A stretch of 64,000 nucleotides of DNA from Synechococcus sp. PCC 7336 (GTDB lineage Bacteria; Cyanobacteriota; Cyanobacteriia; Thermostichales; PCC-7336). Below are positions 4,324-20,331 of this stretch, one piece after another. The notes beneath the pieces were generated by a model, which did no database searches, was not told the origin of the DNA, and saw nothing but the letters and a program-made list of their open reading frames with translations. The stretch is taken from NCBI RefSeq assembly GCF_000332275.1, contig NZ_CM001776.1, forward strand, positions 3,656,008 through 3,720,007, read 5' to 3'. The position numbers and the translations under genes are program-made. Every line of letters starts with the position of its first letter. Within the stretch, counting starts at the first letter, position 1.

Positions 4324-7300
4324 GTGTCCTCCAGTCCGCAATCAGTGGCTTACCCCAGTTCCGCAGCGACTTCGCAGAGATCTATGGACGATCGCCTCCC
4401 ACTGGAAGACCCGTTGGAAGCACTCAACGCCTGTTTTCTCAGCTTCACCAGCGATCCAGATGCCAATATCAACCGCCTGCTCGGTATTTGCGGTCAATTG
4501 CTACAAGCCTCTTTCACCCTTTACAACCGCCTGCAACCGGATGGCACGATTGTTCCCCTCGGTCAGTGGAACGCCCCTCTAAACTGCCAGCCCATCAACC
4601 CCCCTGAAGGGAATCTCTGCTACGACATCATCCAACAACGGGGGGAGCAAGAGCCCCTAGTGGTTCGAGACCTGCCTAACAGCCCCTACGTTCGCACCGA
4701 TCCCAACATCGAGACCCATAACCTAAAAACCTATGTGGGAATGGCCGTTACCTGGAACCGAGAGGTGGTGGGCTCGTTGTGCGTCTTGTACCGCACCGAT
4801 GTTGCCCCCAGCCCCAAACAACTGCAGTTAATGCAGATTGTGGCAGCGGCGATTGGGGTAGAAGAGGAACGCAAACAGGCACAGTTGGCCCTGCAAGACA
4901 GCGAGTCTGCCATTCGCGATTTATATGCAATTGTGGCCGCTTCCGATCTCACCTTCTCCGAGCGATTGCATCAATTGCTCAAAATGGGCTGCAGCCGCTT
5001 CGGGCTCGACTTAGGCATTCTCTCCCGCGTCCGAGGCGATCGCTATACGGTGATGGCGGTCATCGATCCCAATGGGGCGATCGTCAGCGGCACCACATTC
5101 GAGCTGGCCCACACCTATTGCCGCGAGACCCTGCAGGCCAATGGTCCTTTAAGCTTCGAACGGGCCAGTCAGTCGGCCTGGTGTCGCCACTCCTGCTACG
5201 CTCGCCATAAGCTGGAAGCTTACCTCGGGGTTCCGGTGTTGGTGGGGGGAATTGCAGACGGCACGCTGAATTTCTCCAGCGCTAAGCCCAGACGTACTCC
5301 CTTCGGGGCCGCCGATCGAGAACTGTTGCAGTTGATGGGTCAGTGGGTGGGGGTAGAACTGGAGCGACAGCAGGCCAAAACCACCCTAGAGCACCAATAT
5401 CAGCGGGCTCTGCTGCTGCGGGAACTCACCCACGACATTCGCCAAAGCCTTAATGCTAACACTATTTTCCAAACCACCGTCACCCGTTTGGGCCAAATGT
5501 TTGGCGTCAATCGCGTCCACCTGCACACCTACATCGAGCACCCCACCCCCCACCTGCCCTGCGTCTCGGAATATTTATCCCACAATACTTCCTCCAGCCG
5601 CCATGCCGTCATTCCCGTTGCAGACAATCCCCACGCCCAAGCGGTCTTGTCCGGCGATGTTGCCATTGCTACTGACTGCGTCTGGAGCGATTCCCTCACG
5701 CAGACCTTAATCCCCTTCTGCCAGAGTCTAGAAATTGAGTCTATGCTGGCAGCACGAACCTCTTATCGAGGCCAGCCCAATGGCATGTTGGTCTTGCACC
5801 AATGCGACAACCCCCGCCAGTGGCAGCCGGATGAGGTGGAATTTGTCGAGGCGATCGCCGCCCAAGTGGGAATTGCTTTAGCTCAGGCCGACCTGCTGGC
5901 AGAGGCCGATCGCGCCCGCCAAGCGGCTGAAGCCGCCAACCTCGCTAAAAGTGAATTTCTGGCTGTGATGAGTCACGAAATTCGGACGCCCCTCAATGCT
6001 GTGATTGGAATGGCAGGGTTGCTGTTGGATACCCCCCTAACAGCTCAACAGAAAGATTTTGCCGAGACCGTTCGCCACAGTAGCAACGCATTAGTGGAGA
6101 CGATCTCCGATATTCTCGATTTCTCCAAAATTGAAGCGGATCGATTGGAATTAGAGGAACAGCCCTTTTCGCTGCGCCAAGGTGTCGAAGATATTTTAGA
6201 TGTGCTCGCCCCTCTGGCCTCCCAAAAAGGTCTGGAACTCGTGGCGTCGATCGCCCCAGAGGTTCCCCCTTACATTCTTGGCGATGTGACTCGACTGCGA
6301 CAGATTCTGATGAACCTAGTGGGGAATGGCATCAAGTTTACAGAGTGGGGGGAGGTTGTCGTCACAGTCTCGCTAGCAGTCGATCTCGCCAGCGAAGGTG
6401 GCACCAGAGAAGATGGCACCCCAGCGACAGCAGCTTGTCGAAGCGATCGCTATATGCTGCAGTTTGCGGTGCGAGATACCGGCATCGGCATTGCCCTCGA
6501 CCGGCTGGATCGGCTGTTTCAGCCCTTCAGCCAAGTGGATGCATCGACAACCCGCCAGTATGGCGGCAGCGGCTTGGGGCTGGCAATTTGCAAGCGACTG
6601 TGCGAGATGATGGGGGGTCGTATTTGGGTGGAGAGCGATCTCAGTCGAGGCTCTACATTCTACTTCACCATCTGTGCTGCGATTGCCGAAGCTGCTAGCG
6701 CCCCCGAATTGAATGCAGGAGAGGTGCTGGCAAACAAGCGAATTTTAGTGGTGGACGATAACGATACCAATCGAAAACTTCTATGCTTGCAGTTGCAGGG
6801 GGTCGGCCTGTCGGTTGAAACGGCGGCCTCGGGAGCTGAAGCCCTCGTAAAGCTGAAGCGAGCCACCCACGATTATCATCTAGCTATTCTAGATATGCAG
6901 ATGCCGGAAATGGACGGCCTCACCCTTGCCTCCATTCTGCGGCAGCTCCCCAGCAGCCAGCACTTGCCGCTGATTTTAATGACTTCATTGGGTTCGCAAG
7001 ACACCGAGGAACCCGAGCTCATCTCCCGCTATCTCGTCAAACCGGTTAAGCGATCGCAGCTCTACGCCGCCGTGGCTTCGCTATTAGGCAGTCGCAATCG
7101 CCCCGATCGAGCCGCCCCAGACGATCGCCCCCGGCTGGATACTAGCTTTGCCCGTCAAAAACCCTTAAGCATTCTGCTAGTAGAGGACCACAGCATCAAT
7201 CAAAAAGTCGCCTGTCTGATGTTAGGCAAGCTAGGTTATCGAGCCGACATTAGCAATAATGGGGTGGAGGCGATCGAGGCTCTGTCGCGCCAGCAATACG

Positions 7301-7545
7301 ACCTCTTGTTGATGGATATCCAAATGCCGCAGATGGATGGTTGGGAGGCGACCCGACGCATTCGCCAGCACTATTGCGGCCAACAACCGTGGATTGTTGC
7401 CATCACGGCTAGCACCCATCAGGAGTTTCGCGATCGCTGTCTGGAGGCAGGCATGAACGATTTTCTCAGCAAGCCGCTCCTGTTGGCGGATTTAGCCCAG
7501 TCGATCGCGCGAGTGGAGTTGCCTGAGGAGATGTCGCTCGGATGA
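4324..7545 (+). CDS. Multi-GAF hybrid sensor histidine kinase with two receiver domains
   Basis: This is a 1073-residue soluble kinase. Three GAF-like modules occupy about 35-185, 205-350 and 370-525. They are followed by a coiled linker, HisKA with phospho-acceptor His551 in [14 protein letters not shown], and an HATPase domain ([24 protein letters not shown]). Two REC domains follow, with phospho-acceptor Asp857 ([13 protein letters not shown]) and Asp998 ([12 protein letters not shown]). No membrane segment is visible. No chromophore cysteine was obvious, though GAF2 has several Cys, including [10 protein letters not shown], and could be checked for bilin binding. The GTG at 4324 has AAGG five bases upstream; an ATG at 4384 is the alternative. 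It has no Hpt domain and no adjacent partner. Confidence 0.9.
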
Positions 7546-7720
7546 CTTTGAGACCGATCTCCGATGACGGGTGCAATGACTGATAGCACTGGGGACGGTC
7601 TGCACCATGCATTCAACGGTAGATCTGGAATGGGTGTGGGCAATGATGTTGCGTCGCGTCCTGCTGCGATCGCCGCAGGATCGAGCTATTCTGAACGGGA
7701 ATTTGGCTGGAGATGACGGG

Positions 7721-8092
7721 ATGGCTGGCTTGAAACGGTTGGGACTGGGATATCGGAGAACGGCGATCGCTCTGCTGTTGTGCCTAGTGACGCTGTCGAG
7801 TTGCGGCCAAATCGCGCGTCTCACAGCCACCACAACACCGATTGCAACGGCGATCGAGTCTGCTGGAGATACGCAAGAAATTTATATTCGCGGTCGGGTT
7901 GTCAGCCAGTTTGCGTTTTTGGGACAGGGGGCTTACCAAGTTGAAGATGACAGTGGCAGCATTTGGGTGACCACCGATTCGGGATTGCCTGCAATAGATT
8001 CCAATGTCGTGGTCAAAGGCACAACCAGGACTGGAGTTAGAATTGGCACTCGCAACTTTGGGGTAACCCTGACTGAAATCGAGCGGCTCTAA
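7721..8092 (+). CDS. Small OB-fold-like lipoprotein
   Basis: This is a protein of about 123 residues. The N-terminus has a lipoprotein signal: basic MAGLKRLGLGYRR, hydrophobic TAIALLLCLVTL, then lipobox LSSC. The mature part (IYIRGRVVSQFAFLGQGAYQ, then VEDDSGSIWV) resembles the small bacterial OB-fold family in which a strand-rich domain of about 80 residues binds nucleic acid or ligands. The ATG at 7721 is chosen because it puts the signal peptide at the N-terminus and has GGAG upstream; the frame is open to 7607. It is probably anchored to the outer face of the plasma membrane or to the thylakoid lumen side. It is convergent with the PEP-CTERM gene. Its ligand is unknown. Confidence 0.7.
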   Translation: MAGLKRLGLGYRRTAIALLLCLVTLSSCGQIARLTATTTPIATAIESAGDTQEIYIRGRVVSQFAFLGQGAYQVEDDSGSIWVTTDSGLPAIDSNVVVKGTTRTGVRIGTRNFGVTLTEIERL

Positions 8093-8145
8093 TCAAGCTA
8101 AAATCCCTATTTTTCGGTTTGAAATCGATTGATTGTATAAACAAA

Positions 8146-8181
8146 AAAGTGATGCAAGGAGCAAAATTCTTGCATCACTTT
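8146..8181. terminator. Bidirectional Rho-independent terminator
   Basis: A perfect 13-base-pair inverted repeat (arm AAAGTGATGCAAG) has a 10-base spacer. On the minus strand it is followed by TTTTTTGT, and on the plus strand it starts with an A-run and ends in TTTG. It lies between the convergent OB-fold lipoprotein and PEP-CTERM genes, so it can serve both, with the better U-tract for the minus-strand gene. Confidence 0.85.
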
Positions 8182-8209
8182 GTTCATATGAACTTGCGGC
8201 CTATGTAAC

Positions 8210-8902
8210 CTAGCTTCGATGAGTGCGGCGCTTGCGTAAGCCCAAGCTACCGAGTGCGGCGATCGTGGATCCTACAATGGTCATAGGCTCAGGAATTACT
8301 GTGCCAGGGGTGACAAAAACATCGCTTTCGTCATTAGGGTCAATAGACCTGACGTGAATTCCAACCAAAAGTTCTCGACTATTTAGGGCAGCAGCAACAT
8401 CGGCCAAAACACCGTCAAACTCAAGTACTAAGCTATCTCCGACCTGCAGTGCCCCTGCTGTTCCATTTAATCCATCAGGATTCCCCATAAGGTTAATGTT
8501 AGCGACGCCAAAATCCTCATTAAAAGCATCGCCATTGGGGTGATCGAGAATATTATTGCTTTGAGGCAGGTTGGCAGTTGTGGATCCGAATTGGACGCCA
8601 TCAGCAGCACCACTTAAGATTGTTAAGTTGCTCAGCAGATCGGTTGAGTCTGAGAAGGCAATTTGCGCTACAGCTGCAGTGACGGTATTGGTTGTAAAAA
8701 AGCTAAATAAAACTTGACCGCCACCTGTATCAGAAACATCGAAACCAAAGTCACCAACAATACTGTCGCCAAAGGTGTCGCCAGGAAATATATTCTCAAA
8801 ACCAAACATTGATGCTGCATTAGCTGGAGCCACTACAACCGTTGAAGCTAACCCCAAAGCTAATGTGGCCAGCGAACTGCGCCAAGTCACACTTGAAATC
8901 AT
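8210..8902 (-). CDS. PEP-CTERM-type exported protein
   Basis: This is a 230-residue protein. An N-terminal signal peptide (SSLATLALGLASTVVV, cleavage near ANAA) is followed by a serine/threonine- and aspartate-rich, nearly Cys-free body. The C-terminus is a PEP-CTERM sorting tripartite: IPEP, hydrophobic MTIVGSTIAALGSLGL, then RKRRTHRS. Such proteins are exported and handled by an exosortase, usually together with exopolysaccharide. No exosortase gene is in this window. The gene sits in DNA clearly richer in A+T than its neighbours. The body sequence is not one I can assign to a defined family. Confidence 0.85.
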   Translation of the reverse strand: MISSVTWRSSLATLALGLASTVVVAPANAASMFGFENIFPGDTFGDSIVGDFGFDVSDTGGGQVLFSFFTTNTVTAAVAQIAFSDSTDLLSNLTILSGAADGVQFGSTTANLPQSNNILDHPNGDAFNEDFGVANINLMGNPDGLNGTAGALQVGDSLVLEFDGVLADVAAALNSRELLVGIHVRSIDPNDESDVFVTPGTVIPEPMTIVGSTIAALGSLGLRKRRTHRS

Positions 8903-9366
8903 TTATAAGACCCCACTATCGAAATTCACAACGGCAAAATAAATACGTGTTCTGTGAAGCTTCCCTCAGTGATTATACAGTACTTCTGCTAGGATCTCAA
9001 GAAAATGCACTGTAGTTTAAGTGTAAATACGGTTGCCTCCGCCTAACACTACAAACGCTCTTAGATGTAGCTCTAATGTTTCGATTTATTTCATGGTCTA
9101 ACACCATGCAAGCTGCTATTTGGCTATATATTCCTAAGTTTGCTGCTTTAAAGAATTAAAAAATATACTTTGCCTTTCTTGTTTGCTTTCCAAGGCAGAC
9201 TCTTTAATCTGCCGAACACTGAGATAGAGTCTCTTCAGCTTCAATCAGATACCGCCTCGGCTGCCACAAAGCAGGTCAAGTGCTTCGCCAGTAGAGCGCT
9301 ACGATCGCCACCGACAGGCCAGCAATTTTGCCTAACGCGGTGAATCCCCTCAATGCTGGTTTGACG
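8903..9366. other. AT-rich gene-free stretch
   Basis: About 460 bases separate the PEP-CTERM gene from the end of the kinase gene at 9367. The left two thirds is AT-rich. I see no RNA gene or convincing coding frame. The only uninterrupted short frame is 9076-9159 (27 codons, hydrophobic), which I do not consider a gene. The promoter of the PEP-CTERM gene should lie at the left end. Confidence 0.6.
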
Positions 9367-14942: not shown

Positions 14943-16961
14943 CTATTGCACGGGAGCCCCGTCCTCTTGCTGAGGTAACGTCAGATCGCCAGCATCATCT
15001 CTAAAGCGATAGAACAAATACCGGTCTAAAAACGGCTGTTCGTCCAAAACATGCTGAATCATCCCCCGATCCATCAGAATCTGACCGATCTGAGTTGCAT
15101 TCTCCCGCGTTGTCCGCTGATTCTCCATCAACCATTCCACCGCCTCAGCTCCCACAAAACAGTTTCGATACGTCGTTAGCCGATAGCGGCGATCGCGAAT
15201 TTCCACGCCGCCCTCCCCCCGCATCTTCTCCACCAACTCGGTCACCTGCGTCTCTGTAAAAGCATCCTGCAACTGCAGCGGCGTCAAAAATTCCTTCGAC
15301 CAAGCATCTTCTACAAAGGGACGCTCTTCCGCTTCACAGCCCGCGAGCAGTTCCTCAAGTTCTGCTAACGACTCTGAATCCACTTGCTGTTTCAGCCAAA
15401 CCCCGGCCATTTTTTCTAAGTGAGGCGATCGCAAATGCACGTCCCGCTGCGGAAATGGCACTTGAACCCCCAACTTGCGCAAGTTGGCTTCAATTCGATA
15501 ATTCAAGTCACTTTTTAGACTAAACTGCTGTCGAGGATCGGCCAGCCATACCAAGAGCTCGAAATTTAGAGCACTGTCTCCAAACCCTTGAAACCAGACC
15601 TGCGGTCGAGGATATTGCAACACTGTCGGATGGCTGCGAGCTGCTCTCAATAGAACTGCGCGCACTTGACGAATGTCGGAACCGTAGGCCACCCCGAGGG
15701 GAACGTGCAAGCGAGAAACGGCATGACCTTGACTCCAGTTGATTGCCTCTCGATCCAAAATGTGGGAGTTGGGCACGACGATCGCGACGCGATCGAGGGT
15801 GCGAATTGTGGTGCTGCGGGCTCCAATTCGCTCTACCGTTCCCACCAACGAGCCGATGTTGACAAAATCCCCCACCTGCACGGGACGATCCAACAAAATC
15901 ACCCAACCACTAATGAAATTCCTGAAGATATTCTGCAGGCCAAATCCCACTCCCACACTAAAAACACTGGCCACAATGGTCAGGGATGTCAGATCCAGCC
16001 CCCAAGCCTGCAAGATCGCAATCGTGCCCACAATGAGCAGAGCATATTGAATGGTCGTTGCCACGCCATCCGGCAGGCTGGCTTCAGCCCCCAGTGGTTG
16101 CAAAATCTGAGATTTGAGCAGGCGGGTCGAGGCGATCGCCCCCGCCCAAACTCCCGCCAGCAGCCCCAGCAACACCATCAAGTCGAGCAGAGAAAACCCG
16201 CCACTGGCCCCCATCGTGACAATTAAGGGTTCCTGAAAACTGGTGGTTAAAAACTGCAGGAACTGATAGCGCCCCCGCCGCAAGAGCGGCCATAATTCCG
16301 CAATCCAAAAGCTAACCCCCAGCCAACAGCCCAAACGACCCAGGATGAGTCCCAAAGCTAACATCAGTCTGGCCAACTGTTGCGATCGCCTCTGCTGTGG
16401 CTGGCGGCGATCTCGGCGCGACATCAGCCGATGCCCAAAACCAAGCCCGAGATGAATCGCGATCGCCCCCAGCAGAATCCCCCCGCTGCGCCAGAGCGCC
16501 TGACGGCGATAGCCTGGAGTGCGTTCTTGCAATGCCCGCTCTAAAGAAAACTGAAGCCGCCGCTCCCACAAGCGCGCTTGTAACTCGGGGGTGAGACCGG
16601 GGAGAGTGTCTCGTTCTGTAACGGTGAGGAGATGGTTGCCGCCAGCACTAATATTGGCTTGCAATCCCTCCGTATCGGTCGTGAGGGCTAAATCCCTCGG
16701 GTTGCGCGATCGCAGTGCTTCTCGCAGATTGGCATTAATGTATCCAGCTCGATTGCTCGCAGTCAGGGTATCGGTGGCATGGATGCGAAATAGTTCGCGA
16801 CCGTCCAGCACCACTGGAGCTGTTCGAGAGAGTGCGTCGAGAGGGGATTGAGCAAGGACGGGCAGGGGGGCGATCGCCCAGCCGAATAGAAGAATCGCGA
16901 CTGCGATGACGAGGCCACTCCAACGGCGAAGCGATCTCAACTGAACGGGTTGGGCGAGCAT
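14943..16961 (-). CDS. MscS-type mechanosensitive channel with C-terminal DEP domain
   Basis: This is a 672-residue protein. An N-terminal signal or first membrane segment (LVIAVAILLFGWAIAPLPVL) is followed by a periplasmic region of about 110 residues. Several membrane segments (about 155-175, 195-225, 258-285, 305-325) lead into the MscS pore helix and beta-domain (VFSVGVGFGLQNIFRNFISG, LLDRPVQVGDFV, VPNSHIL). After the MscS C-terminal domain, residues about 575-655 form a DEP domain with the hallmark CFVGAEAVEWLM, then a helix pair, then FLDRYLFYRF. MscS proteins release solutes on hypo-osmotic shock, while DEP domains usually bind membranes or partners. The fusion suggests a cytoplasmic regulatory module. 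It is monocistronic. Confidence 0.88.
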   Translation of the reverse strand: MLAQPVQLRSLRRWSGLVIAVAILLFGWAIAPLPVLAQSPLDALSRTAPVVLDGRELFRIHATDTLTASNRAGYINANLREALRSRNPRDLALTTDTEGLQANISAGGNHLLTVTERDTLPGLTPELQARLWERRLQFSLERALQERTPGYRRQALWRSGGILLGAIAIHLGLGFGHRLMSRRDRRQPQQRRSQQLARLMLALGLILGRLGCWLGVSFWIAELWPLLRRGRYQFLQFLTTSFQEPLIVTMGASGGFSLLDLMVLLGLLAGVWAGAIASTRLLKSQILQPLGAEASLPDGVATTIQYALLIVGTIAILQAWGLDLTSLTIVASVFSVGVGFGLQNIFRNFISGWVILLDRPVQVGDFVNIGSLVGTVERIGARSTTIRTLDRVAIVVPNSHILDREAINWSQGHAVSRLHVPLGVAYGSDIRQVRAVLLRAARSHPTVLQYPRPQVWFQGFGDSALNFELLVWLADPRQQFSLKSDLNYRIEANLRKLGVQVPFPQRDVHLRSPHLEKMAGVWLKQQVDSESLAELEELLAGCEAEERPFVEDAWSKEFLTPLQLQDAFTETQVTELVEKMRGEGGVEIRDRRYRLTTYRNCFVGAEAVEWLMENQRTTRENATQIGQILMDRGMIQHVLDEQPFLDRYLFYRFRDDAGDLTLPQQEDGAPVQ

Positions 16962-17091: not shown

Positions 17092-20000
17092 TTATGCGAC
17101 TGTGGATTGGCGCTCTTGCAGGCCAATGCCGATGAGGAAAGATAGAGCAGCGATGACCGCCTTTTCGCAGTGATAGGGAGAACGCTCGTAGAAGGCACTC
17201 CAGGCGCGGGCTCGCAAACCGCCGTCAAACCGATAGCGATCGCGATGCTCGGGATGCTCTTCCAGCCATGCCAAGCGGACGGCATGACCGATGACTACAT
17301 CCATCACTAGATCGTCTTCGATTTGCAGATCGGGGTTCGCCTCGACAGCCTGCGAGAGGGCCATTAGAGCCTCCACGTTGAGTTGGCGATATTCGGGAGC
17401 TGCGGTTTTGTTGAGCAAATGCTCGATCGCGCGGGCAAAGTTCTGCTCGCCAGGGGTCATCTCTGCCAAAATCAACTGACTGTCGAGGTGGTTGCGGCGC
17501 TCTAATTTATCTCCGATCGCCAACCCTTTACAGTGACCCATCAAGTTCCACACCCGGCGGTAAAAGTCGGGGGGGACGCGGTTGAGACTGCCTTCCATGC
17601 GGCGGCGGCGCAGCCAACCCCCTGCTGGTAGGGGCTCTTGGGCGTCGGGCACCTCCACTTGCTGCAAATCGGGGCGATGGGTGCGAATGTGCAACGATTC
17701 TTGCTGGACGACAGCACGATCGAACTGGTTGTATTCCTCCAATACCTGCTTTAGGTGAGTCTTAATTTCAAAGGGGCTCATGGCCATCATGCGATCGTAG
17801 GCGTCCTCCTGCCCCAACTCAAACGCTTGAGCGATCTCGCCAGTAATCAACAGGATCAAATTGCTCACCCGCAACGTGATGAGATTGTCGAACAAACTGG
17901 GGTTCGAGCGCACTAGCAGGCTCAAGAAGATCGTAATTTCCTGGGTGAGAACGTGCTCCCGCACATCTTCACTGCAAAATCGCAGAATCTTGGCAAAGAT
18001 TTGCTCCTGCGATTGGGGACTGGAAATGGTAGAAGCTTCGGTATAGGCTTTGCCCACCGCCACCACCTTTTGTCGCACTAAAATATCGGTAACTGCATCC
18101 GCCAGTCCAATATCCACTTTGCGCAGCAAGCCCGCTGCCCGTCGCACCACCGACCACAACTGCAGCCGACCCGCTCGGTTGTAAAGCTCGTCCAGCAAAT
18201 CTTGAATGGTGACCTCGAGGCTGTGGTGCCGACCGAAGCCCGTGTCGCAGTCAGCTCCCTCCAGGGGCAGCAACGTACTTAAAACCTCTACCTGCTCGTA
18301 GGGATTGCCCGAGCGTCGCAATCGCTTCAGTAGAGCCTCGACATCCGTTTCGCACTCCAATAATAATTCCTGATTGCTGCTGAGAGGGTGAGTCTCGGCC
18401 TCGTCATATCGCAGGTATGAGGGCAACACTTGCTCGCCCGCCAGAGGTTGGGATACTAATTCGAAGTCGTGCAGATAATCGATCCGCTCGGTCCCCGCCG
18501 TCAGCTTCAATTGGTCGATCCGACCCAACTGCACCGTGACGCCATTGCAACTGCCCTCTTGCAATTCCTGCATGAGATCGAGTAGAGCGGTACTGCCCGA
18601 TCGCAGCAGATTGCGGGTAATCATCAACACCATTGTGGGGCGACCGAGAGTGCGCCAATGTTGTTGCAGGTAAGCCAGTTCGGAGCGGATGGTGGCGACT
18701 AAAAAGTGATAGTCGATGGTGAGGTAGAACTGGCGGCGATCGAGAAAGGCGGGCAGGAACAGAGTGGGTTGACCCTTGAGGCGAAAAATTCGGGAGGTGG
18801 CGAGACTGCGCATCCGCTGCAGGGGACAGCCGCTCAGTCCCAGGCGATCGTTGCGGCCCACCTGCATGTAGGCTTTCGCCAGGCGATCGGCACTCCACAC
18901 CTGAATTGGGACGATTTCTGCTAGCGTTTGGGTGTCGATGCCGCGGGCGGCCAATTCCGCTTGCAAGGGCTTATCTTCCGCTAACAACGCCAGTTGGACA
19001 ATGGGAACGGCTCGCGAGTTGAGGCTATTGCGACGGCCTAAGGGGTCGATATCGGAGACGGACAGCAATCCTTCGGCTACCATTTCGCCCAGTAAATATA
19101 GGCTTTGTGCCCACACCAGTGGCAGGTTGGCATTGGGATAGCGCTGTTGGCTGCCCGGTTGGGCGCGCTCGTCCTCGATCGCGTCGAGGGGTACGAAATA
19201 GAGTTCGGGCAGTAACTGTTGGCCGTCTTTTTCGACTAAGAGGGCCTCGAGTTTGCTGCGGTATGCCTCAGCCCGATCGCGATCGCCCAGACAGAGGGCA
19301 TCCAACAGAGAGTAGGTGAAGAACAGCGGCCATTCGCATTCAATGTGCTCGAACTGCTTCAGTTCTGAGGGCTCGTAATGCAAGCGACGGGTATCTTCGA
19401 TCGCCGTTTGGTGCCCGTCTCGCAAAAACCGCTTGCAGCCGTAGCGGCCCTCTAATTGGTTTCGAATCTTGTTACGGGTGGTTTCGACTAGGTCTCGATG
19501 TTCGACTGCATAGGCGGGGTAACCGATGATGCTGAGGGTGGCGGCGTCCACCTCTTTCGAGCTGGATTCGCGCGGGAGCAGGGACTCTAAGGTGACGCGA
19601 GCGCGGGCGATATCGTGGGCCAAGACGTGAACGACCGAGGCTTGGCCGCCATTGAGGCCGAACAGATTGAAATCGTTCATTGCCTCTAGAGCCGCCTTGG
19701 CCATCCCCACAGAACTGGCGTTGAGTTCGGGCTTGCCGTGGTTGATTTTGTTACCCCGTTCCCAAATGCCGTAATCGGGGGTTTGGTAGGCCTTCCCGAT
19801 ATAAAAGACAAGATTTTGCACGAACGCCACCTCGTCCGAGGTGAAGATGACGCGCAATCCCGAGGCCGTCATTTGAGCCAGAAACAGTAAGAATAATGAG
19901 GTAGCGTCGAGTTGCAGGTGGCCCCACTCTCGATCTCCGACGACTACATCCCCTGTCGAGGTGTCGTATTTGGCGTGCAAGGCGTCGAGAGGATCTTGGC

Positions 20001-20331
20001 TGTGTTTGAACTGCTCCACTTTGTGGGCTTGCTTCATCATGGCAGCCAGAAGGCCGCGCATGAGTTTGACTGTGCTTTGTTCCAATTCGTAGGCGCGACC
20101 GTTGGTGTCGTCAGTATCGCGATAGGCAAGTGCTAGCCCCCAAACGGCCAAAATGCTGTAGACGTTGTCTCGCACCCAGGCATCGGTATAGTCTCCATGC
20201 TCGTTGACGGCAGTGCTGGCTGGCAGCAGGCCGGTGATGGGGTGTTGGCGAGCGAGAATGGTGGCGCGGACTTGGCTGTAGTAAAAGTCGAGGCGCGATC
20301 GCTGCTGGTGAGGTTGGAGAGGGACGGACAA
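17092..20331 (-). CDS. GH15 / phosphorylase-kinase alpha-beta-like protein
   Basis: This is a 1079-residue cytosolic protein. The N-terminal 500 residues resemble the (alpha/alpha)6 barrel shared by GH15 glucoamylases and eukaryotic phosphorylase kinase alpha/beta subunits: DAWVRDNVYSILAVWGLALA, GDREWGHLQLDATSLFLLFL, and FTYSLLDALCLGD. The long C-terminal half (DELYNRAGRLQLWSVVRRAA, EYRQLNVEALMAL) also follows phosphorylase-kinase alpha/beta. A conserved form of this length is common in cyanobacteria, and its activity is not established. A role in glycogen metabolism is a reasonable inference from the fold, and glgA is also in this window. The start ATG is at 20331. Confidence 0.82.
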   Translation of the reverse strand: MSVPLQPHQQRSRLDFYYSQVRATILARQHPITGLLPASTAVNEHGDYTDAWVRDNVYSILAVWGLALAYRDTDDTNGRAYELEQSTVKLMRGLLAAMMKQAHKVEQFKHSQDPLDALHAKYDTSTGDVVVGDREWGHLQLDATSLFLLFLAQMTASGLRVIFTSDEVAFVQNLVFYIGKAYQTPDYGIWERGNKINHGKPELNASSVGMAKAALEAMNDFNLFGLNGGQASVVHVLAHDIARARVTLESLLPRESSSKEVDAATLSIIGYPAYAVEHRDLVETTRNKIRNQLEGRYGCKRFLRDGHQTAIEDTRRLHYEPSELKQFEHIECEWPLFFTYSLLDALCLGDRDRAEAYRSKLEALLVEKDGQQLLPELYFVPLDAIEDERAQPGSQQRYPNANLPLVWAQSLYLLGEMVAEGLLSVSDIDPLGRRNSLNSRAVPIVQLALLAEDKPLQAELAARGIDTQTLAEIVPIQVWSADRLAKAYMQVGRNDRLGLSGCPLQRMRSLATSRIFRLKGQPTLFLPAFLDRRQFYLTIDYHFLVATIRSELAYLQQHWRTLGRPTMVLMITRNLLRSGSTALLDLMQELQEGSCNGVTVQLGRIDQLKLTAGTERIDYLHDFELVSQPLAGEQVLPSYLRYDEAETHPLSSNQELLLECETDVEALLKRLRRSGNPYEQVEVLSTLLPLEGADCDTGFGRHHSLEVTIQDLLDELYNRAGRLQLWSVVRRAAGLLRKVDIGLADAVTDILVRQKVVAVGKAYTEASTISSPQSQEQIFAKILRFCSEDVREHVLTQEITIFLSLLVRSNPSLFDNLITLRVSNLILLITGEIAQAFELGQEDAYDRMMAMSPFEIKTHLKQVLEEYNQFDRAVVQQESLHIRTHRPDLQQVEVPDAQEPLPAGGWLRRRRMEGSLNRVPPDFYRRVWNLMGHCKGLAIGDKLERRNHLDSQLILAEMTPGEQNFARAIEHLLNKTAAPEYRQLNVEALMALSQAVEANPDLQIEDDLVMDVVIGHAVRLAWLEEHPEHRDRYRFDGGLRARAWSAFYERSPYHCEKAVIAALSFLIGIGLQERQSTVA

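Follow-up and report, generated by a model that had tools for sequence, protein, structure and literature searches.

The window analysed in this study, a stretch of 64,000 nucleotides from Synechococcus sp. PCC 7336, contains on its minus strand an open reading frame of 672 codons without interruption, whose 672-residue product is a channel of the MscS superfamily carrying a DEP domain in its C-terminal tail (MscS-DEP). The gene and the parts of its product are the following, with the evidence used to delimit them.

14943..16961, minus strand: MscS-DEP channel gene (open frame, Pfam, alignment with 21 full-length homologues)
16839..16931, minus strand: N-terminal hydrophobic segment, residues 11-41 (hydropathy peak 2.46)
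16512..16838, minus strand: putative periplasmic domain, residues 42-150 (alignments, 34% mean identity)
15924..16499, minus strand: transmembrane region, residues 155-346 (hydropathy and alignment)
15732..15932, minus strand: MscS beta-domain PF00924 (MS_channel_2nd), residues 344-410 (73.9 bits, cut-off 20.2)
15465..15701, minus strand: MscS C-terminal cage domain PF21082 (MS_channel_3rd), residues 421-499 (73.4 bits, cut-off 21)
15240..15425, minus strand: variable acidic linker of about 60 residues, 513-574 (net charge -10, 15% identity among homologues)
15003..15209, minus strand: DEP domain PF00610, residues 585-653 (84.8 bits, cut-off 32.7)

The three elements that define the MscS superfamily (pore helix, beta-domain, and cage) are all present, the last two with scores far above their cut-offs; the product may also share the homoheptameric build and the opening under membrane tension that characterise the superfamily. 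The DEP match spans the full PF00610 profile, positions 1-72 of 72, with an E-value of 3.9e-24 (hmmscan against Pfam). The fusion proposed in the preliminary description of this DNA is thus real, since all three domains exceed their thresholds and the tail clears the gathering score that could have spoken against it. That description had also placed the DEP domain right after the MscS fold; the domain does lie in the C-terminal tail, but the junction is not direct, because the acidic linker stands between the two. At the other end of the protein, the hydrophobic segment, which ends in LPVLAQ, is probably signal-peptide-like. The putative periplasmic domain gave no match in a Pfam search and is kept across the family, with G54, F58, A68, R71, and D118 among its invariant positions in the alignment. 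It is followed by about five hydrophobic helices, the last of which is a typical MscS pore helix (VGVGFGLQN), and this odd number of helices after the periplasmic domain would place the DEP domain in the cytoplasm. In sequence searches of the PDB, the channel part matched MscK (7uw5, E 1.5e-50) and the tail matched the DEP domain of DEPTOR (7dkl, E 3.8e-29) as well as those of P-Rex, Epac, Iml1, GPR155, and Dishevelled; 39 of 77 residues (51%) are identical to human DEPTOR DEP1. From these sequence matches to solved DEPs, the tail is predicted to adopt the DEP fold, a three-helix bundle with a beta-hairpin finger. The genome, a single contig of 5.07 Mb, holds 11 matches to the MscS beta-domain, and a DEP domain occurs in one protein only. 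A paralogue in the same genome (L009) joins MscS to a cyclic-nucleotide-binding domain (bCNG type), which shows that a regulatory tail on an MscS channel is nothing alien to this organism.

Judged from the alignment, the DEP domain is constrained like the pore. The mean identity of the protein to its 21 full-length homologues is 57% in the DEP domain, 58% in the pore and beta-domain, and 57% in the cage, whereas the periplasmic part is at 34% and the linker at 15%, a pattern indicating that the tail has kept a function. A tree of the channel part, built with 35 DEP-bearing and 16 DEP-less sequences, needs three changes of DEP state, compared with a mean of 13.7 after shuffling, which is compatible with one old gain followed by a few losses; the window sequence forms a long, unplaced branch in it. 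Copies with and without the DEP domain coexist in two genomes (L045 and L153 in G105; L048 and L150 in G062). In a homologue from G111 (L049:8645-10405), the pore helix motif (VLGVGIGFGLQNI) has diverged while the DEP and beta-domains are kept, and this protein may be non-conducting. The MscS-DEP gene of Cyanothece UBA12306 (L068:4167-6261) is split into two overlapping frames, owing to a frameshift or an assembly error.

The distribution of the fusion was determined in several sets of genomes. A scan of genome contigs with the single protein found no relative, and an alignment of DEP domains was used instead. Among 386 sampled cyanobacterial genomes, 23 encode a DEP domain and 11 encode MscS-DEP channels (13 genes). 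A pattern scan of 84,980 species genomes retrieved 57 loci, of which about 29 encode MscS-DEP, and these counts are lower bounds because the scan used one degenerate DEP peptide. About 28 MscS-DEP loci in named cyanobacteria were thereby added to those of the 11 sampled genomes; the hosts include Moorena, Symploca, Crocosphaera watsonii WH 8501, Xenococcus PCC 7305, Roseofilum, Hormoscilla, and an Acaryochloris MAG, among others. By title, all the MscS-DEP loci of the pattern scan are cyanobacterial except one contig of a 'Crocinitomicaceae' MAG (L066). We rejected this apparent case in Bacteroidota as a misbinned contig, since in the channel tree its channel and the one from cyanobacterium SU3 form a pair whose end branches measure 0.015 and 0.0066. 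A DEP domain was found in none of 348 further genomes of Pseudomonadota and in one of 197 further genomes of Thermodesulfobacteriota (L175), and none of the non-cyanobacterial DEP proteins whose architecture was resolved, a set that does not include L175, is a channel; those examined are tandem-DEP proteins and DEP-oxidoreductases. It is important to note that Bacillota, Actinomycetota, and archaea were covered by the pattern scan only, and that the search was confined to prokaryotes. As far as the search extended, then, the combination is cyanobacterial, and by sequence MscS-DEP is a scattered, well conserved cyanobacterial channel subfamily.

The other DEP proteins found in bacteria are of several kinds. 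The DEP domain is N-terminal on a pyridine nucleotide-disulphide oxidoreductase in four proteins of Gammaproteobacteria and Thermodesulfobacteriota (L106 and L109, according to Pfam, and L110 and L111, placed with them by DEP grouping). Six loci (L075, L102, L104, L105, L107, and L036) encode small tandem-DEP proteins, in which the sole match to another known domain is a weak PIN-like one (L104). Two cyanobacterial proteins (L169:5324-7135 in G085, and L022 in G241) are Ser/Thr kinases fused to DEP. In a tree of DEP domains, based on 88 columns only, six eukaryotic DEPs are split from all the bacterial ones with a support of 97/95, and for this reason a recent transfer of the domain from a eukaryote is not favoured. 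The earlier remark that DEP domains are mostly eukaryotic holds if the entire family is considered; within it, however, bacteria form a lineage of their own, in which the domain occurs in several architectures.

Special attention was given to the genes that accompany the channel. The gene upstream of the window channel (17092-20331, minus strand) encodes a GH15 glucoamylase-like protein with a phosphorylase b kinase C-terminal domain (KPBB_C), and the channel gene has no conserved neighbour apart from generic response-regulator and kinase matches. In the relatives, an all-against-all comparison of neighbouring genes revealed a gene for a protein of 180-220 residues that combines an FHA domain (PF00498, 47-54 bits) with one C-terminal hydrophobic segment (FHA-TM). 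This gene is found, in the same orientation, directly upstream of the channel gene in 15 of 38 MscS-DEP loci, with gaps of about 1-187 bp and one slight overlap; three of the 38 have too short an upstream flank for a judgement. None of 17 DEP-less homologues, each with several kb of flank, has it as a neighbour (Fisher p 0.002 for 15/38 vs 0/17, the rows not being independent). In the channel tree, the FHA-linked loci occupy two branches that lie apart from each other. The window locus lacks this arrangement, and its genome contains no FHA-TM gene, linked or elsewhere; the evidence on a partner is therefore drawn from the relatives.

The association of the FHA-TM gene with DEP proteins extends to whole genomes. 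A stand-alone FHA-TM gene occurs in eight of the 386 cyanobacterial genomes, all eight of which encode a DEP protein, given a base rate of 23/386 (hypergeometric 4e-11, or 1.5e-7 at the genus level, both uncorrected for descent). Six of them have it directly upstream of an MscS-DEP gene. In the remaining two (G085 and G241, of one genus), FHA-TM adjoins a CHASE2-Ser/Thr kinase and the DEP domain is fused to a Ser/Thr kinase, while the channel homologue of G085 has no DEP domain. In G085 the FHA-TM gene follows the CHASE2-Ser/Thr kinase gene directly, with no channel adjoining (L165:6270-6842 and 6874-9066), and G241 shows the same arrangement (L177). Around the channels themselves, a Ser/Thr kinase gene lies just past the FHA gene, in divergent orientation, in six loci, and both of the kinases scanned contain TPR repeats; at L069 the channel gene is directly preceded by another Ser/Thr kinase gene. 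One MscS-DEP gene, of the Acaryochloris type, is followed directly by a gene for an FHA-GAF-GGDEF-EAL protein (L062:3522-6227). The combination of DEP, FHA, and Ser/Thr kinase thus turns up repeatedly, in several forms. The positions of the FHA domain that bind phosphothreonine (GRE, SRxH, and NGT) are conserved in the alignment of the partner proteins. Just past the FHA domain there is an invariant threonine, T121, in a DLxATExN-type motif, which could be a phosphosite for self-binding.

The best overall explanation of these observations, to which we assign a probability of roughly 0.45, is that the DEP domain is a docking site for a signalling partner, which tunes the channel or positions it under phosphorylation by a Hanks-type kinase. 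It draws on the constraint on the DEP domain, its linkage to FHA-TM, the conserved FHA binding positions, the neighbouring kinases, and the precedent of the bCNG channels. In this model, each subunit of the channel would carry one DEP domain flexibly tethered to the cytoplasmic cage, which would give seven per channel if the protein forms heptamers as MscS does. The DEP domain would act as the docking module, and its partner in many relatives would most likely be the co-encoded FHA protein, anchored in the membrane and reading threonine phosphorylation set by the adjoining Hanks-type Ser/Thr kinase. Docking could then set the tension threshold or the inactivation of the channel, or its placement in the membrane, and the window channel, whose genome has no FHA gene, would use another partner in the same way. 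What counts against this explanation is that the window genome itself has no FHA-TM gene and that more than half of the MscS-DEP loci have none either. A more specific version, in which MscS-DEP channels are controlled by Ser/Thr phosphorylation and a DEP-docked FHA membrane protein links the osmotic release of solutes to signalling by Hanks-type kinases, is possible and, in our view, somewhat doubtful.

The preliminary description had left the choice between a lipid and a protein partner open when it suggested that such a partner might gate or localise the channel. Lipid binding is the main rival to the docking of a signalling protein. According to this rival, which we consider unlikely, the DEP domain would be an anchor for an anionic lipid (phosphatidic acid, PG, or alike) of the plasma or adjoining thylakoid membrane, and would couple membrane composition to gating or placement. 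Eukaryotic DEPs do bind anionic lipids: the DEP tandem of DEPTOR binds phosphatidic acid (PMC8439649), and the finger of the Dishevelled DEP supplies basic residues and a Trp for binding PS/PA (PMC11776049). The window DEP has the identity to DEPTOR DEP1 given above, and in an alignment with the Dishevelled DEP the finger positions are partly conserved in the family (R/K589 in 14, R591 in 22, and Y593 in 18 of 22 sequences). However, across the 22 homologues the net charge ranges from +3 to -5 in the DEP domain and from 0 to -11 in the linker, the C-terminus of MscS is at the end of the cage farthest from the membrane according to its established structure, and a lipid anchor leaves the FHA and kinase linkage unexplained. 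The genome context in the relatives, together with these DEP charges and the mostly acidic linker, points to a protein or phospho-signalling partner (FHA protein, Ser/Thr kinase) more than to a lipid.

Two further explanations dispense with any outside partner. The DEP domains could stabilise the oligomer or cap the cage through DEP-DEP contacts, altering inactivation or the passage of solutes; seven copies per channel would sit close together, and tandem DEP pairs are frequent in eukaryotes (DEPTOR, P-Rex) and also occur in some bacterial proteins. We find this quite improbable, as the domain is also carried by kinases, oxidoreductases, and small proteins with no other known domains, and the conserved linkage to FHA would again have no explanation. 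The patchy occurrence in 11 of 386 genomes would fit a passenger domain, fused by chance and without function; yet the DEP domain is as well conserved across distant cyanobacteria as the pore, with many invariant residues beside a linker at 15% identity, and L049 keeps it despite its diverged pore helix. This conservation speaks against a passenger, to which we give a probability close to negligible.

Both domains are known and are visible in any Pfam run; what appears to be new is an MscS subfamily bearing a DEP domain as its putative regulatory tail, together with its linkage to FHA-TM. Our literature search, which left most subscription articles outside its coverage, found nothing linking the DEP domain, MscS mechanosensitive channels, and cyanobacteria, nor anything joining MscS, the FHA domain, and cyanobacteria. 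Papers that treat the DEP domain together with cyanobacteria or a mechanosensitive channel do not, in the portions available, concern an MscS-DEP fusion, in agreement with the first impression that no characterised channel of this kind had been described. MscS channels are usually viewed as passive relief valves, and DEP domains are most familiar from animal proteins. With its eukaryote-like docking domain and the phospho-readers that are often encoded beside it, this conserved subfamily makes kinase control of a bacterial tension-gated channel testable, and suggests that these channels may answer to cell signalling besides membrane tension. If the phosphorylation-controlled version is true, they would be a bacterial counterpart of the ion channels that are regulated by kinases. 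They may also serve as a simple bacterial system for studying what a DEP domain does alone.

Several known systems share part of this architecture. The FHA protein and Ser/Thr kinase adjoining many MscS-DEP genes resemble the known pairs of a Hanks-type kinase and an FHA protein, although none of those pairs was found to act on an MscS channel in the literature searched. The DEP domain belongs to the same Pfam family as those of DEPTOR and P-Rex, with the similarity to DEPTOR DEP1 already described; it differs in being single and on a bacterial channel, within the separate bacterial branch, and the protein has one DEP and no PDZ domain in Pfam, in contrast to the DEPTOR-type mTOR regulators with their tandem DEP and PDZ. 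GPR155/LYCHOS is likewise a multi-pass membrane protein with a cytoplasmic C-terminal DEP (PMC9330825), but it is eukaryotic and its transporter-fold membrane domain is unrelated to MscS. MscK and MscM share the periplasmic N-terminal part, and MscK gives the best full-channel matches (7uw5 and the NCBIfam MscK model); the window protein, however, scores 216.9 bits where the equivalog cut-off is 991 (NF008438), is far shorter than MscK and MscM, and has the DEP domain that MscK lacks. The bCNG channels, found in cyanobacteria including the genome studied here, also join an MscS-superfamily pore to a C-terminal cytoplasmic regulatory domain; the window protein is separated from them by its DEP domain, having no cNMP_binding match in Pfam. 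In the MscS superfamily, 15 subfamilies that carry extra domains have been described, some of them not tension-gated (PMC4560390), and the addition of regulatory parts to MscS channels is well recognised.
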